In this document: one piece after another, positions 31,118 to 47,535 of the stretch | Numbering within the stretch: position 1 is the stretch's first letter | Layout: the number at the start of each line of letters is the position of its first letter | Assembly (NCBI RefSeq): GCF_000147875.1 | Contig: NC_014507.1 | Span: forward strand, 2,418,001 to 2,482,000 | Length of the DNA: 64,000 bases | Direction of reading: 5' to 3' | From: Methanolacinia petrolearia DSM 11571 | GTDB taxonomy: Archaea; Halobacteriota; Methanomicrobia; Methanomicrobiales; Methanomicrobiaceae | Notes under the pieces: generated by a model | What the model saw: the letters and a program-made list of their open reading frames with translations, nothing else | What the model was told of the DNA's origin: nothing | Databases searched by the model: none | Translations under genes and position numbers: made by a program

Positions 31118-31771
31118 TTAGCCCTTGATTGTTACAACTGCACGTGAAATCAGCGTTCCACTGGCCTTGTCGTTTACATCAAGGTAGAACGACTTTCCTA
31201 TGTTTTCCTGATTTACAAAGTCCAGTGCCCAGAAACTATCATCAGCGCTGGTAAGCTTTTCACCTGTATCTGAATCAAGGAACGTCCAGTGCGTACCGTC
31301 AAAATAATAGTCTCCATGACTTGAGTAAACAGTCTTCTGAAGTATCGTTGGTTCACAATTTGTGATATTTACGTAGAGCGTATCTCCAGGGTTGAAAGAA
31401 GATATTCCATAACCCCGGAAGCCACCAGTACTTGAGTTATAGGACATCACAGCCACACCATTTGAAGTAGTAACCGTTGCAAGATTTATTGCACTTGTTG
31501 ACATAGCTTCAAGATTCGGACCGAATGTGGGCCCGTTCTTAACCGTTATCAACATATCGGCAGTAGGAATTGCTTCTCCACCTGCGTGGATGATTGAGAG
31601 ACCTCTGGTTACGCTGAACTCACCCTGAATAGTTGCCTGTGGGGCTTTTGTCTGCCCTTCTGCAAAACCGCCTGCAAATCCGCTAACAACCGCCGCGATA
31701 ATGATTGTTACAACAAGCATTAACATGACACCTACGACGGGAGATACCGCTGAATCGTTATTTTTTATCAT
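31118..31771 (-). CDS. Archaeal type IV pilin, class B, lone pair
   Basis: A 217-residue pilin. MIKNNDS is followed by AVSPVVGVMLMLVVTII, the N-terminal signal and hydrophobic helix of archaeal type IV pilins, which a PibD-type peptidase should cut just before it. The mature part follows the class B pattern of this window: TKAPQATIQGEFSV, IIHAGGEAIPTADM, FGPNLEAM, SSFNPGDTLYVNITNC and ENIGKSFYLDVNDKASG. It has one cysteine. It starts 2 nt after the class A pilin gene stops, so the pair is co-transcribed. It probably forms part of a filament outside the cell. Confidence 0.88.
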   Translation of the reverse strand: MIKNNDSAVSPVVGVMLMLVVTIIIAAVVSGFAGGFAEGQTKAPQATIQGEFSVTRGLSIIHAGGEAIPTADMLITVKNGPTFGPNLEAMSTSAINLATVTTSNGVAVMSYNSSTGGFRGYGISSFNPGDTLYVNITNCEPTILQKTVYSSHGDYYFDGTHWTFLDSDTGEKLTSADDSFWALDFVNQENIGKSFYLDVNDKASGTLISRAVVTIKG

Positions 31772-31773
31772 AA

Positions 31774-32574
31774 TCAGTCCTCCACAGCAATATTGCTATT
31801 ATAAATCGCAGCACCTGTAGGCGTGTAGATAACTTTTACATTAACAGTATCTCCTGCACGAAGCTGTTCCCAGCCATACCCTAGTAATGCCTGAGTCGGA
31901 TCGGCCTGTCCTTCTTCATAGAGGCCCGAGGCATACTTATAAGCATAAAGTGTTTCACCATTGTAACCACTATCTGCAGGTTCTGACAATGCCCCAGCTA
32001 TTGCCTGCCCTGAATCAGATCCGTATGGATATGCAAACAGGTTCACACCCTCCTGTAATGTAAACTGCCCAAACCAACCTGGTTTCTGGTATGCATCAGC
32101 ACTCTTCCCCATTGGATCTGTCGGGTTTGTCTGATCGACTCCTGCTCCTATTCCAAAAGGCGCTGTAGACCAATTTGTCACTGTTTTTGTCTTCATACCC
32201 TGATAACAGATCACATTGGCACTGTTTGGAAGGCTCGTGTTTCCACCTGTAAAAGTATTACCATTAGAGATTGTCTTTTGTTGTTCCGTAAGACCAGGAT
32301 CAGTATTGTCCTTCATAGTTGTCGACCAGGATGTGACAATCTTCAGGTCAGTAGTACTGATTGGTTCACTTACGCCAAGTACCGAGGCCGTAAATCCGCT
32401 TCCTATGTAACTTCCCGTGTTTGCAATTGTAACATCCATGGAAAGCGTCGGAGACTTCTCCTGTCCGGAAATAAGCCCTCCTGCAAAACCGCTCACAACC
32501 GCCGCGATGATAATCGTCACAACAAGCATCAGCATGACGCCCACGACGGGTGAGACCGCATCTTCGTTTTTCAT
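31774..32574 (-). CDS. Archaeal type IV pilin, class A, lone pair
   Basis: A 266-residue pilin beginning MKNEDAVSPVVGVMLML. The start at 32574 is preferred because GGTGA lies about 6 nt upstream and homologues begin here; the reading frame stays open for 35 codons further upstream. The class A body is seen in SPTLSMDVTIANTGSYIGSGF, VLGVSEPISTTDLKIVTSW and, near the end, LLGYGWEQLRAGDTVNVKVIYTPTG. Several N-x-S/T sequons are present. It is the first gene of a class A-class B pair, the same order as in the two big cassettes. Confidence 0.88.
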   Translation of the reverse strand: MKNEDAVSPVVGVMLMLVVTIIIAAVVSGFAGGLISGQEKSPTLSMDVTIANTGSYIGSGFTASVLGVSEPISTTDLKIVTSWSTTMKDNTDPGLTEQQKTISNGNTFTGGNTSLPNSANVICYQGMKTKTVTNWSTAPFGIGAGVDQTNPTDPMGKSADAYQKPGWFGQFTLQEGVNLFAYPYGSDSGQAIAGALSEPADSGYNGETLYAYKYASGLYEEGQADPTQALLGYGWEQLRAGDTVNVKVIYTPTGAAIYNSNIAVED

Positions 32575-32805
32575 ACATTCACCATACATATGATGCACTA
32601 CAGCACCATGATCACCATATTTGTAAAGATTGCTACTTAATATTCGGCTAAAGTAAATTAAATTATATTGATTAATCATCTTATAGTAGACTGAGATGTT
32701 TAACCATTAAAAAAAAAGCTCATTTTTCCGATCATAACCAGCTACAGACCCCGATCAATCTCATAAGAAGATCAGTCAGGTGAACAGGTCCGGAGGTGTG
32801 AAAAT

Positions 32806-32829: not shown

Positions 32830-32931
32830 AGATGATATCATTTACATTCTGCAATCACGGGTGAGTTGCTAAAAATTGTAAAAAAAGCGTAAAACATGAG
32901 ATAGAATAAATACTCAGACAATCTGAGTGCA

Positions 32932-33277
32932 TCACCATTCTTTATCAGAGATTACTGTTGAAATTCCGGATCTTAAGGAGGGAATGTCGTCATTTAAAAC
33001 ATTCCACACAATATCCCAGCTGACATCAAAATAACCATGCGTCAGACGGTCTCTCATTTTTCCAATAACCGACCAGTCAGTGTATTTCAGGATATTCTGC
33101 TTTCAACTCGGGGGATACATTCTTTGCAGCCTCGCCAATAATTTCCAGTGATTTCTGAACGACATGCTGCATTATTTTATCGGCATCAAGTTTTTCATAT
33201 GTCAAAGATTCGGTAGCATCCGAAAGAAACTCTATTTCATCACGGATATGACAGATAAACATCCTGTCGCGATTCAT
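32932..33277 (-). pseudogene. hepT: HepT-like toxin gene (DUF86) with a frameshift
   Basis: The intact frame 33077-33277 codes for 66 residues (MNRDRMFICHIRDEIEFLS, then VVQKSLEIIGEAAKNVSPEL), the N-terminal part of a HepT/DUF86 protein, and stops at 33077. Reading the next frame from about 33088 restores the missing part: DWSVIGKMRDRLTHGYFDV, SWDIVWNVLNDDIPSL, ending at 32932. This includes the R-x4-H motif of HepT RNases/AMPylation targets. A one-base insertion or two-base deletion near 33080-33092 explains it. The start overlaps the mntA stop by 4 nt. It is either inactive, a sequencing error, or rescued by frameshifting. Confidence 0.75.
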
Positions 33278-33585
33278 ACGCGGATTACCTCGGACATAAC
33301 ATCCTGACGAATATAAGAACTCAAAGCACGTTCGGTAACCAGATCTACTTTTCGACCGAATAATTCTTCCAAATAATCTCCCAAATTAACCAGATTTGAA
33401 AGAGTAGCCTGACCGGCCGAAAATGAAATTAGTACATCGATATCACTATCTGCGGTGTCCTCTCCCCTGCTGACAGAACCAAATATGCCGATAGATTCAA
33501 TCCCAAAATGCTGTTGAATATAAGGCAGATTTGCATCAAGTTTCTCTAAAATCTCCTCCCTGATGCTTTTATAAGTACCTGCCAT
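33274..33585 (-). CDS. mntA: MntA-like nucleotidyltransferase antitoxin
   Basis: A 103-residue minimal nucleotidyltransferase with GIFGSVSRGEDTADSDIDVLISF, the GS-x10-DxD active-site motif, at residues about 32-54. In characterised HepT/MntA pairs this enzyme AMPylates the HepT toxin to neutralise it. The ATG at 33585 has GGGGA upstream, and the stop overlaps the toxin start by 4 nt (ATGA). It looks intact whereas the toxin frame is broken. The gene lies between two copies of a 24-bp direct repeat. Confidence 0.85.
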   Translation of the reverse strand: MAGTYKSIREEILEKLDANLPYIQQHFGIESIGIFGSVSRGEDTADSDIDVLISFSAGQATLSNLVNLGDYLEELFGRKVDLVTERALSSYIRQDVMSEVIRV

Positions 33586-33761
33586 AAAAAATCCCCGGTT
33601 TATGAATAGTATATCCAGACGAGTTAATGAGGTTTACTATGGAAATCAGTTCTGGGTTTATCTTCCGCAGGGACAGGATCAACCTTTGTCAATGCCTGAT
33701 ATGAAAAAAATATGAGACTAATCAGCAGTAATGCACCCTGCTATATTGAAAATATCGCTGT

Positions 33762-34547
33762 CTATTCATCGCGCGGAATGCAGATCTTATGAGTACGGTT
33801 GACATTCTCGTAGTCTTCGATACATACACTCACGCCATACACATCCCTGATCAGATCGGGAGTCATGACATCCTCGGGAGGACCGTCCGCTATTACCTTC
33901 CCTCCCTGGATCATCAGAACGCGGTTTGCATAGAGAAATGCATGATCCGGATTATGGGTGGAAAGAATCACGATATACCCGTCATTTGCAAGATTCACAA
34001 TCCTTCTCATCACCCTCCACTGGTTTCCGTAGTCCAGGTTAGCGGTCGGCTCGTCCATGATCAGTATCTTCGCCTTCTGGACAAGTGCACGAGCGATAAG
34101 TGCAAGCTGCCGTTCCCCCCCGGAGATTTCCCCGTAACCCGCATTTTTCAGGTGGGCGATTCCGAGACTCTTCATCGCCTCATACGCCTCGTCGACATGC
34201 TGCTGCTTCGGCTCGGAGAGGATACTGATCTGGTTCGTAAGCCCCATAAGGACGACATCCAGAACAGTGAAATTGAAGACAGGAAAAGTCGACTGCGGAA
34301 TATATGCAATCTTCTTTGCAATCTGCTTGTGATCGAGTGTCTTTATATCAGCTCCTTCCAGAAAAACTGAGCCGGTATAATTCCTGAGAAACCCGAGAAT
34401 GCAGCGAAACATCGTGCTCTTCCCAACCCCGTTAGGTCCCAGAACTGCAAGAAGGTCTCCATCCTTTGCAGAAAACGATACATCACATAATACATCCCTG
34501 AGATTTTTTTCGTAGGAAAACGTCAGATTTTCAACCTCAAGTGTCAT
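33762..34547 (-). CDS. ABC transporter ATPase of the FecE/BtuD family
   Basis: A 261-residue ATPase with Walker A LGPNGVGKST near residue 36, Q-loop IPQSTFPVFNF, signature EISGGERQLALIARAL, Walker B ILIMDEPTANLD and H-loop LSTHNPDHAF. This is the subfamily that powers import of iron-siderophores, cobalamin, haem or, in MolBC, molybdate. Its ATG overlaps the permease stop by 4 nt. No binding protein is adjacent; the one at 23244-24458 is the likely partner. Its last codons are duplicated at 32806-32829. Confidence 0.9.
   Translation of the reverse strand: MTLEVENLTFSYEKNLRDVLCDVSFSAKDGDLLAVLGPNGVGKSTMFRCILGFLRNYTGSVFLEGADIKTLDHKQIAKKIAYIPQSTFPVFNFTVLDVVLMGLTNQISILSEPKQQHVDEAYEAMKSLGIAHLKNAGYGEISGGERQLALIARALVQKAKILIMDEPTANLDYGNQWRVMRRIVNLANDGYIVILSTHNPDHAFLYANRVLMIQGGKVIADGPPEDVMTPDLIRDVYGVSVCIEDYENVNRTHKICIPRDE
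33763..33786 (-). repeat. 24-bp direct repeat inside the 3' end of the ATPase gene
   Basis: Identical to 32806-32829 and in the same orientation. It codes for the C-terminal ICIPRDE of the ATPase. See the partner copy for the match and its reach. Confidence 0.65.
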
Positions 34548-35596: not shown

Positions 35597-35683
35597 AAAA
35601 TGCAATAAGATGTTGGGTAATTAGTTAAATAACTCATAAAGTTAAATGAACATGATTACAACAACAATAGTGTCCGGATTTAA

Positions 35684-36349: not shown

Positions 36350-36600
36350 TGCCTCCTAAAGGAAACCGGGCGGTATACTATTATGATTCCTGTATTTTAA
36401 GATAATTATTCTTCTACTCATAAACTTCATTTGATACACCTCTCATATATCTTTAGCATCCAGAAAGAGTGGGTTTCAAACAGGCTGTATTATGACGTTT
36501 TTTTAATTTTGAAATCGCCGATGAAATAAATTCAGTCGTCTGATAATAAATCTTCTGTAAATCCTGTTAAGTAAGTAAAGTAAATATTATTATTGAACAA
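36350..36600. other. A+T-rich gap between the winged-helix gene and pilin cassette 1
   Basis: No reading frame of note. It should hold the promoter of the divergent winged-helix gene and the outer part of the cassette promoter. Short tandem-like TAAGTAAGTAAAGTAAAT lies at about 36569-36586. Confidence 0.4.
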
Positions 36601-36618
36601 ATGATCATTATTAAGTAT
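36601..36618 (+). promoter_or_regulatory. Conserved upstream element of pilin cassette 1
   Basis: ATGATCATTATTAAGTAT matches 43130-43147 at 15 of 18 positions. Both end at the same distance (about 100 nt) before the first pilin ATG while flanking bases differ more. It may be a promoter or operator; the A+T-rich TATTAC/TTTACATA just after could be the TATA region. Confidence 0.4.
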
Positions 36619-36683
36619 ATTACTTTACATATCCCTATCTTAGAGGTGGTCTCTCACAGTTGTTCTGATCCACTTCTACAGGA

Positions 36684-36699
36684 TTGGCCTGTCGGCCAA
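36684..36699 (+). promoter_or_regulatory. Leader hairpin before pilin A1, cassette 1
   Basis: TTGGCC-TGTC-GGCCAA, a perfect 6-bp stem with a 4-nt loop ending 11 nt before the ATG. Cassette 2 has the same structure with a compensated base pair (C-G in place of T-A at the stem foot). It could influence translation of the first pilin. Confidence 0.5.
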
Positions 36700-36710
36700 A
36701 GGGAATTAAC

Positions 36711-37484
36711 ATGAATTTTCTAAAGAAAGAACCGGGGCATAGCGAAGCGGCTGTGTCACCCGTTGTCGGTGTAATGCTGATGCTGGTTGTCACCATCATC
36801 ATTGCAGCGGTAGTAAGCGGTTTTGCAGGCGGTCTGGTAGGAGGAACCGATCAAAAGGCCCCGTTGCTTACATTGGATGTAAAGATTTCAAACACCGGAA
36901 CCTACATAGGAAGCGGATTTTCGGCAACCGTTACAAGTGTCAGCGATCCCATACCCACCAAGGATATAAAGATCGCGACTTCCTGGAGAGTTAAGGACAG
37001 TAATACCAGCGATATTACTTCAGGGGGAAACACTTCAACGCCTCTTGTTGCCAATGTCAACAGCCCTGAGATAGAAGGAACTTCGCTCATTAAGAGTAAT
37101 GCACCGTACGGGTACGGTCCTGGTGTGAATTCTTCATCAGGCGCACAGTCCCTGACTAATCCTTTCGACAAACCTGATCAGCAGTTCGGAAACTATTCCC
37201 TGGTCCAGGGGACAGGACTCGTTGCATTCGCTTATGGCAGCAACTCGGAAAAAGCGATCGGTTCGTCAACAGGTTTGAGTGATGACGGCGGTTACGGCGT
37301 AGTTACGGATTATGAATATATTTCCGACGGTTACTTTGGGACCGGAGCACTTGACGCCGCACAGGCAGTACTTGGAACAAACTGGGAAAAACTGAGAGTA
37401 GGTGACACAGTGAACGTCAAGGTAATTCATATTCCGACCGGGAAAGTGATCTTTGAAAAGGATGTCGCAGTTACGGAGGGCTAA
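36711..37484 (+). CDS. Type IV pilin A1, cassette 1
   Basis: A 257-residue class A pilin. MNFLKKEPGHSEA precedes AVSPVVGVMLMLVVTII, the signal and hydrophobic helix; a PibD-type peptidase should cut just before it. The ATG at 36711 is chosen because the cassette 2 homologue begins here and a hairpin lies upstream; an in-frame TTG at 36684 is inside that hairpin. The mature part has LLTLDVKISNTGTYIGSGF, VTSVSDPIPTKDIKIATSW and LGTNWEKLRVGDTVNVKVIHIPTG. It has no cysteine and several N-x-S/T sequons. It is the first gene of the cassette, 2 nt before B1. Confidence 0.9.
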   Translation: MNFLKKEPGHSEAAVSPVVGVMLMLVVTIIIAAVVSGFAGGLVGGTDQKAPLLTLDVKISNTGTYIGSGFSATVTSVSDPIPTKDIKIATSWRVKDSNTSDITSGGNTSTPLVANVNSPEIEGTSLIKSNAPYGYGPGVNSSSGAQSLTNPFDKPDQQFGNYSLVQGTGLVAFAYGSNSEKAIGSSTGLSDDGGYGVVTDYEYISDGYFGTGALDAAQAVLGTNWEKLRVGDTVNVKVIHIPTGKVIFEKDVAVTEG

Positions 37485-37486
37485 TC

Positions 37487-38095
37487 ATGGTATTTAAATT
37501 AAATAGCGAAGCGGTTTCACCTGTTGTTGGCGTTATGATGATGCTTGTCGTAACCATCATCATAGCAGCGGTGGTTTCGGCTTTTGCTGGCAGTTCGATG
37601 GACAGCCAGCAGACAGCACCGCAGGCGACTATCCAAGGAAAATTCAGCATAGGGACAGGCATGGAGATCATTCATATGGGCGGAGATGCTCTTGCAACCT
37701 ATGATCTCGTGTTCACTGTAAGAAACAGTCATGTATTCGGCCCGAACCTTGAGCAGGTGACTGCACAGATCATCGATAAGACACTAATTATTGACAGCCG
37801 GGGAAGGCCGCTTGATTACGGGGACGGCAGTACAAATGTTACATCATTTAAATCCGGGGATACCCTTTACATCAATTCTTCATCCATAAGGTGCGATTTG
37901 CTTCAGCCAATAGTCGTCCCGGATGATTATACCGATAATCTCGGAACCGACGGCTACAGTTATACCGGAGATAACGAAGAGTTCTGGGGTCTGTGTTTTA
38001 AAAATAACGACAACATAGGCAACACCTTCTATCTGGATATAAGCGACAAAAACGGGAATCTCATCTGCAGAAGTAAGGTAACGATTACTTCGTAA
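37487..38095 (+). CDS. Type IV pilin B1, cassette 1
   Basis: A 202-residue class B pilin: MVFKLNSE, AVSPVVGVMMMLVVTII, then the class B body APQATIQGKFSIGTGMEIIHMGG, LVFTVRNSHVFGPNLEQV, FKSGDTLYINSSSIRCDLLQP and NNDNIGNTFYLDISDKNGNLICRSKV. Three cysteines lie in the mature part (RCDLLQP, LCFKN, LICRSK) and are kept in the cassette 2 homologue, which suggests a role such as disulfide bonding. A GGAGG site overlaps the end of A1. It is likely an outer-face filament subunit paired with A1. Confidence 0.9.
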   Translation: MVFKLNSEAVSPVVGVMMMLVVTIIIAAVVSAFAGSSMDSQQTAPQATIQGKFSIGTGMEIIHMGGDALATYDLVFTVRNSHVFGPNLEQVTAQIIDKTLIIDSRGRPLDYGDGSTNVTSFKSGDTLYINSSSIRCDLLQPIVVPDDYTDNLGTDGYSYTGDNEEFWGLCFKNNDNIGNTFYLDISDKNGNLICRSKVTITS

Positions 38096-38103
38096 CGGGG
38101 GAA

Positions 38104-38889
38104 ATGCGGATGTTAATAAAAAATGATCAGGCGGTATCTCCTGTTGTAGGTGTAATGCTGATGCTCGTCGTCGTCATCATAATCGCAACAGTAGTCAGCG
38201 GTTTTGCAGGCGGCCTTGTTGCAGGAAACAGCCAGAAATCTCCAACTCTTTCCATGGATGTTAAGATTTCCAATTCGGGAACGTGGACGAACAGCGGTTT
38301 TTCTGCGATTGTGACAGGGGTCAGCGAACCAATCCAGACAAGCGATCTCAAGATCATCACATCGTGGAAGACCAGGATGAAATACAACTACGGTACTGCA
38401 AATGACGAGTTAAGACTCGTTACAAACGGAACGGTTTTCACAGGCGGCAATACGACTGCAGGAAAGGTGGCCAACGTCTTTGAGCCGTCGATTGCTACGG
38501 CCGGTTTAAATGTAGCGAGCATCGCGCCATACGGTTCCGGAATGGCGACAGCTCCGGGAGAATCGGCAGTATCCGGAAATTTCCTGACACCATATAAGGT
38601 TCCCGAGTGGCAGTTCGGCAATTACACGCTGACAACCGGTGTAAGCATGAGCGCAAAGCCTTACGGCGGTATGCACGACGGAACAGGAAATGCGTATACG
38701 AGCGGTTATGGAGTTGATTCTCTTTTTGCATACACTTCGGACAGCGACGCTTATACGGATCCCATGCAGGCTGTACTCGGTTACGGATGGGAAGAGCTAA
38801 GATCGGGAGATACGGTCTCCGTGAAGGTCATCTTTGTACCGACCGGGAAGACGATCTTTTCAAAGGATGTCTCAGTTGTGGAGGGCTGA
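38104..38889 (+). CDS. Type IV pilin A2, cassette 1
   Basis: A 261-residue class A pilin. It starts MRMLIKNDQAVSPVVGVMLML; an alternative ATG lies two codons later. The mature body reads SPTLSMDVKISNSGTWTNSGF, VTGVSEPIQTSDLKIITSWK and, near the end, LGYGWEELRSGDTVSVKVIFVPTG. There is no cysteine; N-x-S/T sites such as NTT and NYT are present. It sits 8 nt after B1 and 3 nt before B2, so all are in one operon. Homologue in cassette 2: 44648-45373. Confidence 0.9.
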   Translation: MRMLIKNDQAVSPVVGVMLMLVVVIIIATVVSGFAGGLVAGNSQKSPTLSMDVKISNSGTWTNSGFSAIVTGVSEPIQTSDLKIITSWKTRMKYNYGTANDELRLVTNGTVFTGGNTTAGKVANVFEPSIATAGLNVASIAPYGSGMATAPGESAVSGNFLTPYKVPEWQFGNYTLTTGVSMSAKPYGGMHDGTGNAYTSGYGVDSLFAYTSDSDAYTDPMQAVLGYGWEELRSGDTVSVKVIFVPTGKTIFSKDVSVVEG

Positions 38890-38892
38890 AAT

Positions 38893-39507
38893 ATGAGAGA
38901 TAATAATTCAGGAGTCTCCCCTGTCGTGGGGGTTATGATGATGCTTGTCGTGACAATCATTATCGCAGCCGTAGTGTCGGCTTTTTCAGGGGGCCTAACC
39001 AGCGGGCAGACAAAAGCTCCACAGGCAAACATCAAGGGAACTTTCAGCGTATCCGAAGGCATGACCATCTCTCATGCAGGCGGAGACTCTCTCGCAACAA
39101 AAGACCTTATATTCACCATCCGTGACGGTGACACATTCGGGCCGAATCTCGAGTCATCAACTGCACAGACGCTTGATATGACTACAATAAATGTAAATAC
39201 GCCCGACAGGGGGTCTGGTCAGATGAGGACGGTCGACGGTGCTTTTTACATGACCTCGTTCAACTCGGGCGACACCGTTACCATTGACCCGGATGACTGC
39301 ACATGTAATATTCTTCAGCCAAATGTAGCACCGACGGATTTTGAGGACAATGTTGCAGCTGACGGCTATACGTATACGGGAACCCAGACTGCTTCATGGG
39401 CATACTGCATCAGGAACCAGAACAGCATCGGCAAAAGCTTCATACTCGAGGTGAGCGATACGGCAGGTCACCTGATCTCGACAAACAAGGTGTTGATCAC
39501 CACATGA
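38893..39507 (+). CDS. Type IV pilin B2, cassette 1
   Basis: A 204-residue class B pilin: MRDNNSG, VSPVVGVMMMLVVTII, then APQANIKGTFSVSEGMTISHAGG, LIFTIRDGDTFGPNLESS, FNSGDTVTIDPDDCTCNILQP and IRNQNSIGKSFILEVSDTAGHL. Cysteines fall in DDCTCN and AYCIRN, as in its cassette 2 homologue. The ATG follows A2 after 3 nt. It is probably partnered with A2 in the filament. Homologue: 45377-46003. Confidence 0.9.
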   Translation: MRDNNSGVSPVVGVMMMLVVTIIIAAVVSAFSGGLTSGQTKAPQANIKGTFSVSEGMTISHAGGDSLATKDLIFTIRDGDTFGPNLESSTAQTLDMTTINVNTPDRGSGQMRTVDGAFYMTSFNSGDTVTIDPDDCTCNILQPNVAPTDFEDNVAADGYTYTGTQTASWAYCIRNQNSIGKSFILEVSDTAGHLISTNKVLITT

Positions 39508-39542
39508 TGATCTCATTTTTTGATTTAAAGGAGGGTTAAATT

Positions 39543-40502
39543 ATGAAGAGCAAAATTAAAAAGAATCTTCCTGCCTGCATGCTGTCTTATGAGCACAGGA
39601 GAGAATCTGCGGTATCTCCTGTTGTCGGAGTCATGCTGATGCTTGTCGTGACGATTATCATCGCGGCGGTTGTGAGCGGTTTTGCAGGAGGGCTTATTGA
39701 AAACGGCGCCCAGAAGACTCCATCACTTACTATGGATGTCAAAATCACAAATTCCGGCACATACAGAGGGAGCGAGTTCTCTGCAACCGTTACAGGAGTC
39801 AGCGAACCAATCCAGACAAGCAATCTCAAGATCATCACTTCATGGACAACAACGGTAAAGACGAATACCTATATTAAGAGTAGTGGAGGCACAGAGATCA
39901 ATGGTACCGGCTGCATCCTCAGCCTGCCGCTTGGAACAGTCTATCACGGCGGTACGGAATGCATTCCGGGTGTTTCAAATTCATATACACAAAAAACAGC
40001 AAAAAGCGTAGCGCCTTATGGATTTGGTCCGGGAGTAACCAATACGACCACCTCTGATATGGGAAATTACATGTACAACGGTCCTATCATTCCGATGTAT
40101 AACTGGCAGTTCTTTTCTGTAACCCATTTCGGAAACTACAGCCTTGAGCAGGGCACAGTTATGCTCGCCGAGGCAGGCGGACGTTGCATATATTACCCAG
40201 TAACAGGTGGTATTCCTGACACTTTTAATATGGGAGGTTATGGTACCATGACATACCTAAATGGAGAGTATGTAGCTCACACATATCATTACAAAACCGG
40301 AAACGTCTATGGTGTTTACACCGGCGATGAAACTGTGCCAATGGATATTATCGCCGACGGAGGACAGATCGACGGCATGCAGGCCGTCCTTGGCTGTGGC
40401 TGGGAAAATCTCAGGGGCGGCGATGTCGTAAACGTAAAGGTTGTCTACACGCCTTCAGGAAAAACTATCTTCGACCAGGACGTGGTGGTGGACTACTCAT
40501 GA
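39543..40502 (+). CDS. Type IV pilin A3, cassette 1 (cysteine-rich class A)
   Basis: A 319-residue class A pilin, larger than A1 and A2. Its leader MKSKIKKNLPACMLSYEHRRES is longer than usual and is followed by AVSPVVGVMLMLVVTII. The body has SLTMDVKITNSGTYRGSEF, VTGVSEPIQTSNLKIITSW and LGCGWENLRGGDVVNVKVVYTPSG. Four mature-part cysteines are visible (TGCILS, TECIPG, GRCIYY, LGCGWE), unlike A1 and A2. AAAGGAGGG lies just before the ATG. The stop overlaps the B3 start by 4 nt (ATGA), so A3 and B3 are tightly coupled. Confidence 0.9.
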   Translation: MKSKIKKNLPACMLSYEHRRESAVSPVVGVMLMLVVTIIIAAVVSGFAGGLIENGAQKTPSLTMDVKITNSGTYRGSEFSATVTGVSEPIQTSNLKIITSWTTTVKTNTYIKSSGGTEINGTGCILSLPLGTVYHGGTECIPGVSNSYTQKTAKSVAPYGFGPGVTNTTTSDMGNYMYNGPIIPMYNWQFFSVTHFGNYSLEQGTVMLAEAGGRCIYYPVTGGIPDTFNMGGYGTMTYLNGEYVAHTYHYKTGNVYGVYTGDETVPMDIIADGGQIDGMQAVLGCGWENLRGGDVVNVKVVYTPSGKTIFDQDVVVDYS

Positions 40503-41158
40503 GATCTATCATAACAAATTACAGGAATCATGAAGCGGTATCACCTGTCATCGGCATTATGCTGATGCTTGTCGTAACGATCATAATCGCCGCAGTTGTT
40601 TCGGCATTCGGCTCGGGACTTGTGGACAGCCAGTCCAAGGCATTGCAGGCAAAGATCGGCGCAACTTTCAGCGTTTCCCAGGGAATGACAATCACCCATG
40701 ATGGAGGTGACGCAATACCCCTTGACGATCTGATCTTCATAACGAACAACGGAGACGGCTTCGGGCCGAATGCCCAGAAAGTTACGACACAGCAGATTGA
40801 TTTGAATCTCATCACTGACAAAGAAGGGAATCCGGTTTTCTCAACAAACAGTATCGGTGGCAAGTCATCCTTCAACCCGGGAGATACTCTCTATATCACC
40901 CCTTACAACTGCACATGCAGTCTTCTGCAGTATTCAGTTTCAGCACCTTTATTTGAAAATGTAGGAGATTCCCATTGTATGAGTGAGGGGGTATGGGACT
41001 GGGAGAACTACCCGACTACATACGAAGGAAATTCCTGCGATGCATTATGGAAGCTCTGCTTCAGGAATCCTGACAATGTAGGGAAGGTGTTCATATTCAA
41101 GGCAAGCGACAGGGACGGAAATATAATCTCGACGTGCGAGGTGAAGATCACATCGTAA
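40499..41158 (+). CDS. Type IV pilin B3, cassette 1
   Basis: A 219-residue class B pilin: MRSIITNYRNHEAVSPVIGIMLML, then SAFGSGLVDSQ, AKIGATFSVSQGMTITHDGGD, IFITNNGDGFGPNAQKV, SFNPGDTLYITPYNCTCSLLQ and NPDNVGKVFIFKASDRDGNIIS. It carries six cysteines in the mature part (CTC, HCM, SCD, LCF, TCE). Its start overlaps A3 by 4 nt. It is the last pilin of the cassette; a hairpin and then the thioredoxin-CcdA gene follow. Homologue: 46960-47535. Confidence 0.9.
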   Translation: MRSIITNYRNHEAVSPVIGIMLMLVVTIIIAAVVSAFGSGLVDSQSKALQAKIGATFSVSQGMTITHDGGDAIPLDDLIFITNNGDGFGPNAQKVTTQQIDLNLITDKEGNPVFSTNSIGGKSSFNPGDTLYITPYNCTCSLLQYSVSAPLFENVGDSHCMSEGVWDWENYPTTYEGNSCDALWKLCFRNPDNVGKVFIFKASDRDGNIISTCEVKITS

Positions 41159-41423: not shown

Positions 41424-42605
41424 ATGCTGAAGACAAAGTACAATATTGCCCTATTTTTAATTTTAATCCTTTTCACGCAGGCTGTTTATGCTTTGGACGG
41501 AGATGCAAATTTTTCATATGACCACACAGGAGTATCACAGGAAGATCAGATCAGGCAACTGATTTCAACTGCAAATACGACTGTAACCGTATTTTACAGC
41601 AGCCATTGCAGTTCGTGCAGCAGGGTAATACCCTTCATCGAGAACCTCTCGGAGAGTTATCCGGAGATCGAAGTGCAATATTATGACCTGTACAATTCCA
41701 CGGAAAACCTGACTCTCATGTATGAATTCGGGGTCCGCTACAACATGCACTACGTATCTTACCCTATCCTCTTTACCGGGGACACCGTGGTCCTGCCCGG
41801 AATGTCACCGATAATGGAGAATGCCGGGGATGTGTTTGACTCTCTCGATAAAGGACTGATTCCTGACACGGATTACGAAAAACAATGGCTGACAGAAGAT
41901 GAATATTCCCAGGAAGAAGACCTGGGAGAGGACATACTGACAGATCTGTCGATCATCGCAGCCGCCGGACTTTTAGACGGAATTAATCCCTGTGCATTTG
42001 CAGTCCTCGTTTTTCTTCTGGTCTCCCTCATGGCATCGGGCCCGGGAAAAAAAGTCCTTATTTCGGGACTGCTCTATACATCTGCAGTATTCATCTTTTA
42101 CGTCCTGGCCGGACTCGGGATAATGTGCATTGTGGGTTTTTCAGGTTTATCGTTCTATTTCTCGATATTTGCCGGCATTGTTGCGATAACGGCCGGACTG
42201 ATCAATATTACCGACGCATTACAAAAGAACCCGGAGGCGTCCCTATCGATCCCTGCCTCTTCAAAAGGAGTCATCGGCCGGTTCATCGCCAAAGCAACAC
42301 TTCCCTCCTCGTTTTTCCTCGGAATTATTGTCGGAATGTTCGAACTCCCGTGTACCGGGGGGATCTATCTTGCAATAATCAGCCTGTTTTCATCGGAGAT
42401 GACATTCTATGAAGGAGTTCCATACCTGATTTTGTACAATTTTTTCTTTGTGATGCCCCTGCTTCTGATCACATTCGCAGTCGCTCTCGGGCTTTCACCG
42501 AAGTTCGTCGATTTTGCAAGAATAAAATACAGGAATAAACTCAGGCTCGTAATGGGAATAGTTCTCATCATAATCGGTGCATTCGTCGTTTGGTGGCAGA
42601 TTTAA
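41424..42605 (+). CDS. Thioredoxin-CcdA fusion membrane protein
   Basis: A 393-residue protein. A signal peptide (NIALFLILILFTQAVYA) is followed by an outer thioredoxin-like domain at residues about 40-140 with FYSSHCSSCSRVIPFIE, a CxxC redox site. Six hydrophobic segments follow from about residue 180, with the CcdA/DsbD cysteines in DGINPCAFAVLV and MFELPCTGGIYL. Such proteins carry electrons across the membrane to outer thiols. It closes a cassette of cysteine-containing pilins, so disulfide control of the pilins is a fair inference. A defective copy is at 47806-48277. Confidence 0.88.
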   Translation: MLKTKYNIALFLILILFTQAVYALDGDANFSYDHTGVSQEDQIRQLISTANTTVTVFYSSHCSSCSRVIPFIENLSESYPEIEVQYYDLYNSTENLTLMYEFGVRYNMHYVSYPILFTGDTVVLPGMSPIMENAGDVFDSLDKGLIPDTDYEKQWLTEDEYSQEEDLGEDILTDLSIIAAAGLLDGINPCAFAVLVFLLVSLMASGPGKKVLISGLLYTSAVFIFYVLAGLGIMCIVGFSGLSFYFSIFAGIVAITAGLINITDALQKNPEASLSIPASSKGVIGRFIAKATLPSSFFLGIIVGMFELPCTGGIYLAIISLFSSEMTFYEGVPYLILYNFFFVMPLLLITFAVALGLSPKFVDFARIKYRNKLRLVMGIVLIIIGAFVVWWQI

Positions 42606-42791: not shown

Positions 42792-43129
42792 TAACGATTT
42801 AAGCCCGGAACGCATCGAAATAACGGCATAAGAATGACCTCTTTTTTTCAGACGATGTTTATATCGAAGAAGGAGGAGATCGTGGAATCTGAGGCTTCTG
42901 TGTGGATGTAAAAAATCACGCTTTTCGCTATTTTTCGCCTTATTTAAGCTTTACTTTACAATCAGGGTTTAGTTTGAAAAAATCTATCCCCTTTTCCGGA
43001 TTTTTCCCGACATCAATGAGACAGGACAATTATGCGCATTTGCGCACTAATAAATTTCCCGGTATTTAAAATTTTTTCAGCAGCGTAGATCTAATTAATT
43101 TGGTTATGTTAACAAATAATGCTTAATTT

Positions 43130-43147
43130 ATGATCTATTTTAAGTAT
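43130..43147 (+). promoter_or_regulatory. Conserved upstream element of pilin cassette 2
   Basis: ATGATCTATTTTAAGTAT; 15 of 18 positions match the cassette 1 element, again about 100 nt before the first pilin ATG. Probable promoter or operator. Confidence 0.4.
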
Positions 43148-43213
43148 CGGTACTAATTAATCCACTTATGGTAGAGTGGTTTCACGTAATTCTTATGAAC
43201 CACTTTTGGAGAA

Positions 43214-43230
43214 CTGGCCTTCATGGCCAG
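43214..43230 (+). promoter_or_regulatory. Leader hairpin before pilin A1, cassette 2
   Basis: CTGGCC-TTCAT-GGCCAG, a perfect 6-bp stem with a 5-nt loop ending 10 nt before the ATG. The foot base pair differs from cassette 1 but pairing is kept, and the loop differs in length. Confidence 0.5.
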
Positions 43231-43240
43231 AGGATTTAAC

Positions 43241-44014
43241 ATGGATTTTCTAAAGAAAGAACCGGGGCATAGCGAAGCGGCTGTGTCACCCGTTGTCGGT
43301 GTAATGCTGATGCTGGTTGTTACCATCATCATTGCAGCAGTAGTAAGCGGTTTTGCCGGCGGCCTGGTTGGGGGAACAAGTCAAAGTGCTCCGCTGCTTA
43401 CAATGGATGTAAAGATTTCAAACACAGGGACCTACATTGGAAGCGGATTTTCGGCAACGGTTACAAGTGTCAGCGATCCGATCCAGACAAAGGATATAAA
43501 GATCGTAACATCCTGGAGAGTTACGGACAGCAATTCCGGTGACACTACTTCAGGGGGAAACACTTCAATGCCTCTTGTTGCCAATGTCAACAGCCCTGAG
43601 ATAGAAGGAACTTCGCTCATTAAGAGTAATGCACCATACGGGTATGGTTCGGGTGTGAACTCTTCATCAGACGCACAGTCACTGACCAATCCTTTCGATA
43701 AACCCGATCAGCAGTTCGGAAACTATTCCCTGATCCAGGGAACAGGACTCGTTGCATTCGCTTATGGCAGCAACTCGGAAAAAGCGATCGGTTCTTCAAC
43801 AGGTCTGAGTGATGACGGCGGTTACGGCGTAGTTACGAATTATGAATATACTTCCGGCGGTTACTTTGGGACCGGAGCGCTTGATGCCGCAACAGCAGTG
43901 CTTGGTTCTGGCTGGCAAGCACTGAGAGCCGGAAATACAGTGAATGTCAAGGTAATTCATATTCCAACCGGGAAAGTGATCTTCGAAAAGGATGTCGCAG
44001 TAACGGAGGGCTAA
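43241..44014 (+). CDS. Type IV pilin A1, cassette 2
   Basis: A 257-residue class A pilin, the same length as its cassette 1 homologue and very similar: MDFLKKEPGHSEAAVSPVV, LLTMDVKISNTGTYIGSGF and LGSGWQALRAGNTVNVKVIHIPTG. An in-frame ATG six codons earlier overlaps the leader hairpin, so 43241 is preferred. In place of the usual GDT of the end motif it has GNT. There is no cysteine; N-x-S/T sequons are present. It is the first pilin gene of cassette 2, 3 nt before B1. Confidence 0.9.
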   Translation: MDFLKKEPGHSEAAVSPVVGVMLMLVVTIIIAAVVSGFAGGLVGGTSQSAPLLTMDVKISNTGTYIGSGFSATVTSVSDPIQTKDIKIVTSWRVTDSNSGDTTSGGNTSMPLVANVNSPEIEGTSLIKSNAPYGYGSGVNSSSDAQSLTNPFDKPDQQFGNYSLIQGTGLVAFAYGSNSEKAIGSSTGLSDDGGYGVVTNYEYTSGGYFGTGALDAATAVLGSGWQALRAGNTVNVKVIHIPTGKVIFEKDVAVTEG

Positions 44015-44017
44015 ATC

Positions 44018-44632
44018 ATGGAATTAAAATCTGATAACAATGCAGTTTCACCGGTCGTCGGTGTTATGATGATGCTTGTCGTAACAATCATCATTGCAGC
44101 GGTAGTTTCAGCCTTTGCAGGAAGTTCGGTGGGCAGCCAGCAGGTAGCACCGCAGGCAACGATCCAGGGGACATTCAGCATTGGCTCGGGAATGGAGATC
44201 ATTCACATGGGCGGAGATGCTCTTGCAACAAATGATCTTGTGTTTACGGTCAGAAACAGTCCTGTGTTTGGCGCGAATCTCGAACAGGTGACTGCACAGA
44301 TTATCGATAAGACATTAATTATCGATAGTCAGGAAAGACCACTGGATACCGGAGATGGCAGCACATCTGTTACATCGTTTAAAGCCGGAGATACCCTGTA
44401 CATCAATTCATCGAGTATAAGATGCGATCTGCTCCAGCCACTAATCGTCCCGAATGATTATTCTGATCATCTTGGAAACGACGGCTACAGCTATAACAAT
44501 TCTGGTGACTATCAGGAACAATGGAATCTATGCTTTAAAAACAACGACAACATAGGAAACACCTTCTATCTCGATGTCAGCGACAAGAGCGGGAATCTCA
44601 TCTGCAGAAGCAAGGTCACGATAACTGCGTGA
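44018..44632 (+). CDS. Type IV pilin B1, cassette 2
   Basis: A 204-residue class B pilin: MELKSDNN, AVSPVVGVMMMLVVTII, APQATIQGTFSIGSGMEIIHMGG, FKAGDTLYINSSSIRCDLLQP and NNDNIGNTFYLDVSDKSGNLICRSKV. The three cysteines of the cassette 1 homologue (37487-38095) are kept in the same places. The gene lies 3 nt after A1 and 15 nt before A2. Its likely place is the filament, beside A1. Confidence 0.9.
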   Translation: MELKSDNNAVSPVVGVMMMLVVTIIIAAVVSAFAGSSVGSQQVAPQATIQGTFSIGSGMEIIHMGGDALATNDLVFTVRNSPVFGANLEQVTAQIIDKTLIIDSQERPLDTGDGSTSVTSFKAGDTLYINSSSIRCDLLQPLIVPNDYSDHLGNDGYSYNNSGDYQEQWNLCFKNNDNIGNTFYLDVSDKSGNLICRSKVTITA

Positions 44633-44647
44633 TCAGGGGGAGAAGGG

Positions 44648-45373
44648 ATGACGATGAAGAATGATCAGGCTGTGTCCCCTGTTGTCGGTGTCATGCTGAT
44701 GCTTGTCGTAACGATAATCATCGCAACTGTTGTCAGCGGGTTCGCAGGCGGTCTTGTTGCAGGAGGCAGCCAAAAGTCTCCGGACCTTGCCATGGATGTC
44801 AAGATTACTAATTCAGGGACTTGGGCAAACAGCGGTTTTTCCGCGATTGTAACCGGGGTCAGCGATCCGATCCAGACAAGCGACCTTAAAATAGTCACTT
44901 CATGGAAGAAGAACGATGCTATAGGCGGCAATATTTCCGTAGGAAACGTGGTAAATGTTATTGAGCCGTCCATTGTTTCATCAGGCCTGAACGTGGCAAG
45001 TACCGCGCCTTATGGTTTCGGAATGGCGACCGTAGCAGGAGAATCGGCGATTAGCGGAAGTTCCCTGAGACCTAACAACGCTTCCGAGCGTTGGTTCGGC
45101 AATTACACACTTGCACCGGGCGTGAGCATGAGTGCACAGCCGTTCGGCGGCATGAATGACGGAACAGGACAGGCGTATACAAGCGGCTACGGCATAGAAA
45201 ACTCTTATGAATATACCGGGTTTGACAGCGATAAGTACACGGATCCAATGCAGGCAGTGCTTGGTTCTGGCTGGGAAGACCTAAGGACTGGAGATACCGT
45301 TTCGGTAAAGGTGATCTTCGTACCGAGCGGGAAGACGATCTTTGCAAAGGACGTCACCGTCCGGGGGGGCTGA
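44648..45373 (+). CDS. Type IV pilin A2, cassette 2
   Basis: A 241-residue class A pilin, about 20 residues shorter than the cassette 1 homologue because the stretch after ITSWK is trimmed. It begins MTMKNDQAVSPVVGVMLML and ends LGSGWEDLRTGDTVSVKVIFVPSG, with SPDLAMDVKITNSGTWANSGF near the start of the mature part. No cysteine is present. It starts after GGGGGAGAAGGG and stops 3 nt before B2. Confidence 0.9.
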   Translation: MTMKNDQAVSPVVGVMLMLVVTIIIATVVSGFAGGLVAGGSQKSPDLAMDVKITNSGTWANSGFSAIVTGVSDPIQTSDLKIVTSWKKNDAIGGNISVGNVVNVIEPSIVSSGLNVASTAPYGFGMATVAGESAISGSSLRPNNASERWFGNYTLAPGVSMSAQPFGGMNDGTGQAYTSGYGIENSYEYTGFDSDKYTDPMQAVLGSGWEDLRTGDTVSVKVIFVPSGKTIFAKDVTVRGG

Positions 45374-45376
45374 GAT

Positions 45377-46003
45377 ATGAGCGAGAATAATTCTGCGGTC
45401 TCTCCTGTTATCGGCGTCATGCTGATGCTTGTCGTGACGATTGTTATAGCGGCGGTTGTCTCTGCTTTTTCCGGCGGATTCATCGACGGACAGACTAAAG
45501 CTCCTCAGGCGAATGTCAAAGGAACTTTCAGCATATCCGGGGGCATGACTATCACCAATGCAGGCGGCGACTCGCTTGCAACAAAAGACCTCATATTCAC
45601 AATCCGTGATGGTCCCACTTTCGGGCCGAACCTCGAGTCGTCGACTGCACAGACATTGGATATGTCCACGATAATGGTAGACACTGACAGGAGTCAGACA
45701 TATGAGGATGGAGAGCCACAGCCAATGCTGACAACATGGGGAGTATACTTCATGGTATCGTTCAATCCGGGAGACACCGTTACTATTGAACCGGAAGACT
45801 GCACGTGCAATATTCTTCAGCCGAACGTTGCCCCTACTGACTTTGAGGAGTACCATGACGGCTACACATACGAAGGAACCCAGGCAGCAGCATGGGCGCA
45901 TTGTATCAGGAACCAGGACAGTATCGGCAAGAGCTTCATACTTGAAGTGAGTGACACGGAGGGTCACCTGATCTCAAAGAGTGATGTACTGATCACTGTA
46001 TGA
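45377..46003 (+). CDS. Type IV pilin B2, cassette 2
   Basis: A 208-residue class B pilin: MSENNSAVSPVIGVMLMLVV, APQANVKGTFSISGGMTITNAGG, FNPGDTVTIEPEDCTCNILQP and IRNQDSIGKSFILEVSDTEGHL. Cysteines of EDCTCN and AHCIRN match the homologue at 38893-39507. It lies 3 nt after A2 and 24 nt before A3, with AAGGAGG ahead of the next gene. Confidence 0.9.
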   Translation: MSENNSAVSPVIGVMLMLVVTIVIAAVVSAFSGGFIDGQTKAPQANVKGTFSISGGMTITNAGGDSLATKDLIFTIRDGPTFGPNLESSTAQTLDMSTIMVDTDRSQTYEDGEPQPMLTTWGVYFMVSFNPGDTVTIEPEDCTCNILQPNVAPTDFEEYHDGYTYEGTQAAAWAHCIRNQDSIGKSFILEVSDTEGHLISKSDVLITV

Positions 46004-46027
46004 GATTTATCTTTCAAGGAGGATCAA

Positions 46028-46963
46028 ATGATGAAAAAACTATTTAAATTCCAGGAATCCGACTGCGCTGTTTCTCCGGTCGTCGGCGTTATGCTGATGC
46101 TTGTCGTCACCATTATAATCGCGGCGGTTGTAAGTGGATTTGCAGGCGGACTAATTGACAGCGGTAGCCAGAAGACACCCACTCTCAGTATGGATGTCAG
46201 CATAAAAAACTCCGGCACATGCCACGGCAGTGGATTCTACGCACTGGTAACAGGTGTGAGCGAGCCTATCAATACAAGTGACCTGAAACTCATCACCTCA
46301 TGGACCACCACCGTGAAGAAGAATACGTATATCACTTCTTCTAATGGGGAAGCTACAGGTGTTGGCTGCATTCTTGGGCTGAATATAGGTACTGTATATC
46401 ATGGCGGAGCTGAAGTCCTGCCGGGTGTCTCCAACACTATGACTAAGTTGACATACACAGATGGAGGCGGAGTGGCCCCATTCGGGTCAGGTACCGGCGT
46501 AGAGGGAACCGTTCCTGCTAATAAGCACGCAAATTATGAAGAAACAGCTTATTTCGGAAATTACATTCTGGACATAGGCACTGTTATGGCAGCCGAACCT
46601 ATTGGGGAATGCCATAATACTTACTCCATGGTCGGAGGTTATCACGTGAGAAATAACATGGGTGATATCGCTATTAGTCCAAAGGCAGGAGGATATGGTC
46701 AAACGACTGGATTCCCACCCTCTTCCACCACTTTTTTGTACCAATACAAAGACGATAATAACGCCTTTGTGTACAAGGTATATACCGGTGAAGAAACTAC
46801 ACCTGCAGGCATCATTGCCGACGGCGGGCAGGTAGACAATATACAGGCCGTGCTCGGCTGCGGGTGGGAGAACCTGCGGAGCGGTGACACCGTGAACGTC
46901 AAGATTGTCTACATACCAAGCGGGAAGACGATATTCAATAAGGATGTTGTGGTGAGCGCATGA
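46028..46963 (+). CDS. Type IV pilin A3, cassette 2 (cysteine-rich class A)
   Basis: A 311-residue class A pilin, with MMKKLFKFQESDCAVSPVVG at the start and SLTMD replaced by TLSMDVSIKNSGTCHGSGF. The end is LGCGWENLRSGDTVNVKIVYIPSG. Cysteines are seen in SGTCHG, GVGCILG, GECHNT and LGCGWE, as well as one next to the expected cleavage site (SDCAVSP). The middle region differs strongly from the homologue at 39543-40502. The stop overlaps B3 by 4 nt. Confidence 0.9.
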   Translation: MMKKLFKFQESDCAVSPVVGVMLMLVVTIIIAAVVSGFAGGLIDSGSQKTPTLSMDVSIKNSGTCHGSGFYALVTGVSEPINTSDLKLITSWTTTVKKNTYITSSNGEATGVGCILGLNIGTVYHGGAEVLPGVSNTMTKLTYTDGGGVAPFGSGTGVEGTVPANKHANYEETAYFGNYILDIGTVMAAEPIGECHNTYSMVGGYHVRNNMGDIAISPKAGGYGQTTGFPPSSTTFLYQYKDDNNAFVYKVYTGEETTPAGIIADGGQVDNIQAVLGCGWENLRSGDTVNVKIVYIPSGKTIFNKDVVVSA

Positions 46964-47535
46964 AACCAAAATTAAGAAACGATGCGGTTTCACCTGTGAT
47001 CGGAATCATGCTGATGCTCGTAGTCACGATCATAATTGCCGCGGTCGTATCGGCATTCGGCTCGGGGATGATCGACAGCCAGGCCAAGACCCCACAGGCA
47101 AAGATCGGCGCGACGTTCAGTGTCTCGCAGGGCATGACCATCACCCATGACGGCGGGGATGCAATTCCTCTCGACAGTATCGTCTTTATCACCCAGCACG
47201 GACCAGGCTTCGGGCCGAGTACCGAGCCGTTCGCCGAGGTTCTGAACACAAGCATAATCGCCGATGAGGACGGGAACCAGGTGTTCCTCACCAGCAGTAC
47301 CGGCGGAAAGTCCTCTTTCAACCCGGGGGACACCCTGTATATCTCAACAGATAATTGCTCGATGGAAATGCTCCAGCCGGGACTATATAAAACCTCGAAA
47401 ACAAGTTTTTCCGGTGGCGCCATAACAGCTCTCAAGTACCAGAGAACCCAGAATGTCGGCAAGACCTTTATATTGAAGGTAAATGATAAGGACGGGAATC
47501 TCATCTCGACATGCGAGGTGAAGATCACATCGTAA
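46960..47535 (+). CDS. Type IV pilin B3, cassette 2
   Basis: A 191-residue class B pilin, about 28 residues shorter than the cassette 1 homologue. It reads MKPKLRNDAVSPVIGIMLML, SAFGSGMIDSQ, AKIGATFSVSQGMTITHDGGD, SFNPGDTLYISTDNCSMEMLQ and NVGKTFILKVNDKDGNLISTCEVKITS. Only two cysteines remain (DNCSM, STCEV), compared with six in the homologue. Its ATG overlaps the A3 stop by 4 nt. It closes the pilin series of cassette 2. Confidence 0.9.
   Translation: MKPKLRNDAVSPVIGIMLMLVVTIIIAAVVSAFGSGMIDSQAKTPQAKIGATFSVSQGMTITHDGGDAIPLDSIVFITQHGPGFGPSTEPFAEVLNTSIIADEDGNQVFLTSSTGGKSSFNPGDTLYISTDNCSMEMLQPGLYKTSKTSFSGGAITALKYQRTQNVGKTFILKVNDKDGNLISTCEVKITS

Follow-up and report, generated by a model that had tools for sequence, protein, structure and literature searches.

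Why should an archaeal genome carry fourteen pilin genes that fall into two classes and alternate along the chromosome? We analysed a window of 64,000 nucleotides from Methanolacinia petrolearia DSM 11571 (NC_014507.1, positions 2,418,001 to 2,482,000), in which such genes lie between positions 31118 and 47535. A sequence-only reading of the locus had proposed that a class A and a class B pilin strictly alternate, that they work as an A-B heterodimer, perhaps in filaments of alternating subunits, and that pairs are exchanged to vary the cell surface.

Seven gene pairs and two pilin classes

Examining the ORFs together with class profiles, we confirmed the strict A/B alternation. All 14 pilin ORFs were found as seven same-strand pairs running A then B, and no gene among them lacks a start, a signal peptide or the helix. 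The lone pair lies on the minus strand (A0, 31774..32679; B0, 31118..31771), with a gap of 2 nt. Cassette 1 (alpha) lies on the plus strand and consists of A1 (36684..37484), B1 (37487..38095), A2 (38104..38889), B2 (38893..39507), A3 (39543..40502) and B3 (40499..41158), with within-pair gaps of +2, +3 and -4 nt. Cassette 2 (beta), also on the plus strand, consists of A1 (43223..44014), B1 (44018..44632), A2 (44648..45373), B2 (45377..46003), A3 (46028..46963) and B3 (46960..47535), with gaps of +3, +3 and -4 nt; at the A3-B3 junction of both cassettes the genes overlap by 4 nt. The tight spacing of 2-3 nt gaps or 4-nt overlaps, claimed for most pairs, is therefore a feature of all seven. A likely ATG lies downstream of the ORF start in A1 of cassette 1 (~36711), A1 of cassette 2 (~43241) and the lone A (~32574).

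All 14 genes encode archaeal type IV pilins. Scanning the genome with PF07790 (Pilin_N), we obtained 46 matches, which cover every pilin gene of the window. The window pilins scanned with Pfam, among them A0, B0 and A1, B1 and B3 of cassette 1, score 57-77 bits against a cut-off of 25.2, with B0 at 77 bits. The predicted cleavage sites over all pairs are mostly DAVS, EAVS or SAVS, the xAVS type of a class III signal peptide, and the genome has one prepilin peptidase gene (Arc_PepC_II). Neither PHROGs nor NCBIfam yielded a narrower family for these pilins. The only match to the archaellin family Arch_flagellin (PF01917) was the lone B, at 17 bits versus a cut-off of 29.5, and the genome's own archaellins are located elsewhere.

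The two classes differ chiefly in their heads, which are 19-32% identical between A and B, versus 41-90% within A and 35-84% within B. Class A pilins are larger and richer in long inserts. The profile-profile alignment of A and B spans 83 columns, comprising the N-terminal helix and first strands only; the helix common to both shows that A and B derive from one ancestral pilin. The class profiles place A0 and cassette 1 A2 and A3 in class A, and B0 and cassette 1 B2 in class B. The motifs originally used to define the classes are roughly right but not strict: cassette 1 A1 has NW-E-KLR, cassette 1 A3 has GDVV, cassette 2 A1 has GNTV, and B3 carries ALQA or TPQA.

Pairing and co-divergence across genomes

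We applied class profiles seeded on the 14 window pilins to the pilins of Methanomicrobiales. The profiles assigned 279 of 285 pilins to A or B, and leave-one-family-out calls agreed for 132/132 A and 147/147 B. The search for adjacent A-B pairs in other genomes, suggested along with the original proposal, showed that pairs occur order-wide and are not confined to the window locus. A class B gene comes directly after 123 of the 132 A genes, so A genes commonly standing without a B neighbour, which the proposal had named as its refutation, are not what the order holds. In named genomes, B follows 23 of 26 A genes. Among 78 multi-pilin runs, 70 were perfect (AB)n (46 AB, 8 ABAB and 16 ABABAB), while 10,000 label shuffles yielded a mean of 12 and a maximum of 26 perfect runs; thus, the pairing is not due to chance. 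Across the order, gaps within a pair are mostly -4 or 1-3 nt, and those from B to the next A mostly 8-35 nt. The M. petrolearia genome alone holds 19 A and 20 B-type genes, about two of the latter being short GEM-type pilins that stand alone, and about 18 A-B pairs.

Using the class A head alone as a query and then classing the neighbours, we found B next to 24 of 25 testable A genes inside Methanomicrobiales. Outside the order, 18 of 19 A genes have B as their immediate downstream neighbour; these genes belong to two families, f7 and f8, the former including Methanomethylovorans and Methanolobus. The exceptions to the pairing comprise one lone-A lineage (G000:625204 and G025:594.7 kb), three successive A genes in one Methanoregula (L163) and an A-A step in another (L207), and a six-pilin cluster with the order AABABB, AABAB or AABBAB in five genomes. 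Beside the lone A at G000:625204 we looked for a broken B and found none.

Partners also diverge together. The A and B distance matrices correlate with r = 0.67, while within-genome shuffles reach at most 0.18. Cognate partners share an alpha1 helix identity of 0.846, against a mean of 0.816 and a maximum of 0.830 for within-genome shuffles. On a set of 60 non-redundant pairs, at least six alpha1 positions match between partners 4-6 SD above expectation. Residue co-variation signals between A and B exceed those of randomly shuffled pairings as well, but the strongest couplings mostly seem to reflect subfamilies; we therefore used only the alpha1 co-variation on the non-redundant set.

Mirror trees are no proof of contact, because joint duplication and gene conversion also make neighbours co-diverge. 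An ancestral AB operon may simply have been duplicated many times, leaving mere neighbours that each build a filament of their own. Joint duplication would account for the mirror trees, and several pilins per machine are reported elsewhere in archaea, as in Haloferax volcanii (PMC4858521, PMC12448462). Relics, however, would lose partners often, and loss of either partner is rare both among the 42 lineages of pairs defined by a Kimura distance cut-off of 0.8 and among 184 distinct pairs. The alpha1 co-variation on the non-redundant set also argues against such a history, and we regard it as improbable. In summary, adjacency inside and outside the order, co-divergence and alpha1 co-variation lend good support to the A-B pair as the working unit, and the partners very probably act together.

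Conservation and surroundings of the cassettes

We compared the cassettes with each other and with those of related genomes. Pairs 1, 2 and 3 have position-specific orthologues, kept together and in the same order in six genomes of three families; within the order (232 genomes), A3 has orthologues in six, each of which also carries A1. The lone A0 has an orthologue of 66% identity in a Methanoregula cassette locus. Between the two cassettes of the window, identity is 90% for A1, 84% for B1, 76% for A2, 77% for B2, 62% for A3 and 63% for B3. A2 of cassette 1 falls in an alpha-type clade, and A2 of cassette 2 groups with G054 in a beta-type clade. The unit of turnover is the whole three-pair cassette, and three species keep two of three cassette types each.

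The suggestion that pairs are exchanged to vary the surface did not gain support. Under antigenic or phase variation, the cassettes would store alternative pairs, and recombining these would alter the surface. Whole cassettes do occur in tandem copies, with turnover from species to species, and A1 has been homogenised by recent gene conversion, its dS being 0.29 between cassettes versus 0.80 between species. Against this stand the positional orthology and constant order of pairs 1-3 across three families, and the dN/dS of about 0.09-0.26, which points to purifying selection on the cassette pilins. Silent cassettes would hold copies that lack a start and N-terminus and donate sequence to one expressed locus, but each of the 14 genes here has its start, signal peptide and helix and is thus no such copy. 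We rejected pair exchange on the grounds of position-specific orthology and low dN/dS, and we consider a variation system at this locus very improbable.

Each cassette is preceded on the plus strand by a conserved leader (36557..36683 for cassette 1, 43085..43222 for cassette 2), recognised from leader comparisons. In an alignment of leaders from four genomes, that of cassette 1 contains an ATGATC-N4-TTAAGTA block and an imperfect GTGG...CCACTT inverted repeat. The seventh gene of cassette 1 (41424..42605, plus strand) encodes a CcdA-like membrane protein with a thioredoxin domain, recognised by weak Pfam thioredoxin and SfLAP matches. Its counterpart after cassette 2 (47806..48295, plus strand) is a remnant corresponding to residues 1-92 and 314-393 of the cassette 1 protein; both ends are retained, and a middle part of ~680 bp is deleted. 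Intact copies follow both cassettes in two other genomes (G054 and G013) and the cassette of a third (G201). The Methanoregula cassettes lack this gene, and we therefore set it aside as accessory.

Adjoining the lone pair on the minus strand is an AglB-type oligosaccharyltransferase gene (28447..30936; TIGR04154, 646 bits versus a cut-off of 450), which is possibly related to N-glycosylation of the pilins. In the genome, PilB/PilC genes lie beside A-B clusters, e.g. at genome positions 2221676-2236275 and 366004-377662.

Proposed co-assembly and comparison with known filaments

How might the partners work together? The explanation we favour, with reasonable though not high confidence, is that each A-B pair encodes an obligate module of two cognate pilins, which assemble together in one archaeal type IV filament. 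The pair would be translated as a coupled unit through its 4-nt overlaps or few-nt gaps, both pilins would be processed by the single prepilin peptidase, and one of the PilB/PilC machines would draw them into one filament. The two alpha1 helices would pack in one core with both heads exposed. That cognate partners, which would touch each other, end up in the same filament is probable. Such a filament would most likely hold A and B in similar amounts, either as A-B heterodimers or as subunits that alternate; a regular alternation along its length is plausible, with the M. villosus archaellum as precedent, at slightly less than even odds. The three cassette pairs would be conserved components that differ from each other, not variants that can replace one another, and may serve three types of filament or three zones within a single one.

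AlphaFold2 monomer models of cassette 1 A1 (pLDDT 80.6) and B1 (pLDDT 84.1) show one N-terminal helix followed by a beta-rich head. The top fold match of A is the C. divulgatum pilin 8rey, and that of B is the H. volcanii pilin 8fj5, also its best sequence match. Against 8fj5, the B profile scores 65 bits (profile positions 4-119) and the A profile 50 bits (5-77), suggesting that B is closer than A to known PilA-like shaft pilins.

This longer reach of B, along with the larger, insert-rich A, would suit a major/minor pair, the main rival to co-assembly, in which the shaft would consist of a single class, probably B, and the cognate A would be a minor pilin that primes, caps or anchors the filament. 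There are precedents in the Aap pili of Sulfolobus acidocaldarius and the CdiP pili of C. divulgatum, where the shaft consists solely of AapB or CdiPB, with AapA and CdiPA regarded as minor pilins (PMC11178815, PMC12448462). However, nearly every B lineage has its own co-diverging A and the gene numbers are near 1:1; a general cap needs no private copies, so a private A for each shaft protein argues against a cap. Moreover, 8rey is itself a shaft-forming pilin, and the helix of A resembles that of B about as much as that of another A. On balance, we find a major/minor division unlikely, though the least so among the rivals.

Alternatively, A and B may both be major pilins incorporated without fixed order. 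Random mixing was proposed for Streptococcus sanguinis PilE1/PilE2, which share extensive identity (PMC10628169), and UpsA/UpsB of Sulfolobales are thought to be both major subunits of mixed pili (PMC3892339, PMC7064770). The strict one-to-one pairing and the strongly diverged heads of A and B, unlike those of PilE1/PilE2, make such stochastic filaments doubtful here.

Extending co-assembly further, we speculate that Methanomicrobiales, some Methanosarcinaceae and one further family might possess a separate class of obligately two-subunit type IV pili, many per cell, each filament alternating a cognate A and B, with the three-pair cassette giving a six-subunit filament of three A-B zones. We consider this broader picture less likely than not.

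The archaeal pilus structures in the cited literature are homopolymers, and the one regularly alternating structure is an archaellum (PMC8821640). Should A and B assemble together, pili of two subunits would be usual, not exceptional, in a large methanogen order, and the ~18 pairs of one genome would constitute a natural experiment on pilin partner recognition. The question whether type IV filaments form from preformed heterodimers becomes directly testable. Since the profile separates A from B, it also offers a simple annotation rule. Our literature search, which covered few subscription journals, found no published pairing rule for archaeal pilins, so a prior description may exist; a query aimed at archaeal pilin pairs gave no result, and otherwise the search brought up only the two-pilin systems Ups, Aap, CdiP, M. 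villosus ArlB1/ArlB2 and PilE1/PilE2.

The A-B pairs resemble the known systems in part. Like Ups, they are two pilin genes in one operon, but Ups is one pair within its machinery operon, and the UpsA equivalog model matches far below its cut-off here (B3 22.6 bits and A1 17.5 bits versus 130). Aap and CdiP likewise have two pilins encoded near each other, and A finds its best fold match in the shaft pilin of C. divulgatum; these systems differ in their one-pilin shafts, in cdiP pilin genes that are uncoupled and 862 bp apart, and in that no order-wide pairing rule is described for them. H. volcanii has six PilA pilins, any one or any combination of which suffices for pili (PMC4858521). They share with the window genes the Pilin_N family, the match to B and a DAVS-type cleavage site (PilA1), but no A-B classes are recorded among them. 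The S. sanguinis system is bacterial, with subunits much alike. In the archaellum of Methanocaldococcus villosus, ArlB1 and ArlB2 alternate and assembly from preformed heterodimers was proposed (PMC8821640). This too is a filament of two homologous type IV subunits, but its subunits are archaellins forming one alternating pair, whereas A and B are Pilin_N pilins, with ~18 pairs in the M. petrolearia genome.

Pairing of the two pilin classes

Between 31118 and 47535, the window carries 14 complete Pilin_N (PF07790) genes, forming seven pairs in which a class A gene is followed by a class B gene. A lone pair (A0/B0, 31118-32679) is encoded on the minus strand. The plus strand holds two cassettes of three pairs each, cassette 1 (36684-41158) and cassette 2 (43223-47535), both running A1 B1 A2 B2 A3 B3. 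The sequence-only reading had described tight A-B spacing for most pairs, and this holds for every pair in the window, at 2, 3 or -4 nt. The N-terminal helix is almost the same in both classes, the heads of A and B are 19-32% identical, and a profile-profile alignment of A with B spans only 83 columns, all N-terminal. The M. petrolearia genome, a single contig of 2,843,290 bp, has 46 Pilin_N matches. It also has an archaellin gene broken by a TAG stop and adjoining an intact archaellin gene (G000:C1:2033088-2033625). The lone pair is separated from the cassettes by genes (33274-36349) for an MNT-type nucleotidyltransferase, the permease and ATPase of an ABC transporter, and a DUF7226 protein.

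Pilin clusters were collected from M. petrolearia and 27 other genomes of Methanomicrobiales, and classes were called on the head only by iterated profiles seeded with the 14 window pilins. The 285 pilins comprised 132 A, 147 B and 6 of neither class; remaking the profiles without the tested family left all calls unchanged. Looking for A genes without B neighbours, as the sequence-only reading had proposed, we found B directly 3′ of A on the same strand for 123 of the 132. The pairing rule thus extends beyond the window locus. Pilin runs in the order were mainly AB (n = 46), ABAB (n = 8) and ABABAB (n = 16), with few of other kinds. Of the 78 multi-gene runs, 70 were perfect (AB)n arrays; 10,000 shuffles yielded 12 on average and 26 at most. 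Gaps were mostly -4 or 1-3 nt within a pair and 8-35 nt from pair to pair. With the Kimura distance cut-off set to 0.8, the pairs formed 42 lineages.

Two further sets share some of their members with the earlier ones. Scanning named genomes with an A-head motif returned 14 loci (in Methanoregula, Methanocorpusculum petauri, Methanoculleus chikugoensis, Methanolinea, Methanomethylovorans, Methanolobus and others), and B followed A in 23 of 26 cases there. Searching 296 genomes of the phylum with a profile built only from the A head gave matches outside the order in two families: Methanosarcinaceae (including Methanomethylovorans and Methanolobus) and a second that is probably Archaeoglobaceae. 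B lay directly downstream of 18 of 19 A genes there, and of 24 of 25 testable A genes inside the order. Combining all sets yields 184 distinct A-B pairs. Tandem pilins of presumed haloarchaea, among those examined, had no clear fit to A or B.

The exceptions are few in kind. One orthologous six-pilin cluster (locus L009, 11005-14755, and orthologues) is conserved in five genomes in the scrambled order AABABB, except for AABBAB in one of the five and AABAB up to the contig end in another; where complete, it still holds three genes of each class. Only one lineage of A clearly lacks a neighbouring B: it comprises a lone gene adjoining a PilB/PilC locus in M. petrolearia (G000:C1:625204-625851) and its likewise lone counterpart in genome G025. 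One Methanoregula has three successive A genes (L163) and another an A-A step (L207). Short lone GEM-type pilins gave weak B scores and are probably of a different kind from B.

Partnership of A and B

Comparing the A and B distance matrices, we obtained r = 0.67, while shuffling partners within each genome never exceeded 0.18. This correlation shows the pair to be the unit of duplication, which by itself does not prove contact. More telling is the likeness of partners in the alpha1 helix, since alpha1 helices form the core of such filaments. Cognate A and B were 0.846 identical in alpha1, compared with a mean of 0.816 and a maximum of 0.830 for same-genome shuffled partners. Among 60 non-redundant pairs, A and B matched 4-6 SD over expectation at positions scattered along alpha1, with genome identity uncorrected. 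The simplest reason would be a common filament core; the alternatives are that gene conversion, or genome-wide drift, made the helices alike.

AlphaFold2 monomer models, one per class (from alignments of 45 and 44 sequences), showed beta-rich, mostly confident heads. The best fold matches, at modest scores, were both filament-forming pilins: the Haloferax volcanii pilus for B (8fj5, E 4e-4) and the Cuniculiplasma divulgatum filament for A (8rey, E 1.9e-3).

We are highly confident in an obligate, cognate partnership of A and B, and most likely the two share one and the same filament. A-B alternation based on a heterodimer is the likeliest single arrangement, which we put forward tentatively. 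The strongest rival is that each major pilin would have a private minor pilin, in the manner of Aap and CdiP, which set a precedent for such a pair (PMC11178815, PMC12448462); the near-equal dosage of A and B genes, their coupling and their co-divergence all make it less likely.

Origin and constraint of the cassettes

Judged from their sequences, cassettes 1 and 2 are an old tandem duplication, with A/B identities between them of 90/84% for pair 1, 76/77% for pair 2 and 62/63% for pair 3. In trees of A2, A3, B2 and B3 alike, the cassettes of three species fall into three types, the same in every tree, with the order alpha-beta in M. petrolearia, gamma-beta in genome G054 and alpha-gamma in genome G013. 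An alpha-gamma-beta ancestor that lost one cassette per species would fit all three. A1 departs from this pattern: dS is 0.29 between the two M. petrolearia copies and 0.80 between the beta copies of M. petrolearia and G054, indicating that A1 was homogenised by gene conversion.

Pairs 1, 2 and 3 of a cassette are not interchangeable: A3 orthologues, present in 6 of the order's 232 genomes, never occur without A1, and each gene of the Methanoregula and G201 cassettes is closest to an M. petrolearia gene at the same position. dN/dS was about 0.10-0.21 between cassettes and 0.09-0.26 between species. In the G201 cassette, A3 (L205, 9148-10188) has an in-frame stop or frameshift close to its end, and this A3-B3 pair may be decaying.

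The leaders of cassette 1 (36557-36683) and cassette 2 (43085-43222) have in common an ATGATC-N4-TTAA(G/A)TA block, which also precedes a Methanoregula cassette (L161). Both leaders further contain an imperfect GTGG...CCACTT inverted repeat that is common within the family. These elements may represent a promoter with an operator, or else a 5′ hairpin. A CcdA-thioredoxin gene is the last gene of each cassette in G054, G013 and G201, and is absent next to the Methanoregula cassettes. In M. petrolearia it is intact 3′ of cassette 1 and internally deleted 3′ of cassette 2 (47806-48295; the middle ~680 bp is gone and the 3′ piece is 94% identical to the first copy); this second copy is intact in G054 and G013. 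Cysteines are frequent in B1-B3 and A3, and CcdA-thioredoxin may service those of the cassette pilins.

Relation to known filaments

A survey of type IV pili across archaea records singleton and tandem pilin genes (PMC4858521), and we found no description there of two pilin classes in fixed pairs. Nor did we find the A-B pairing rule described in the open-access literature. Type IV filaments with two subunits are already known, namely ArlB1/ArlB2 (PMC8821640), PilE1/PilE2 (PMC10628169) and UpsA/UpsB (PMC3892339); what we report here is, as far as that literature shows, the first sign of pairing as the rule for a whole order.
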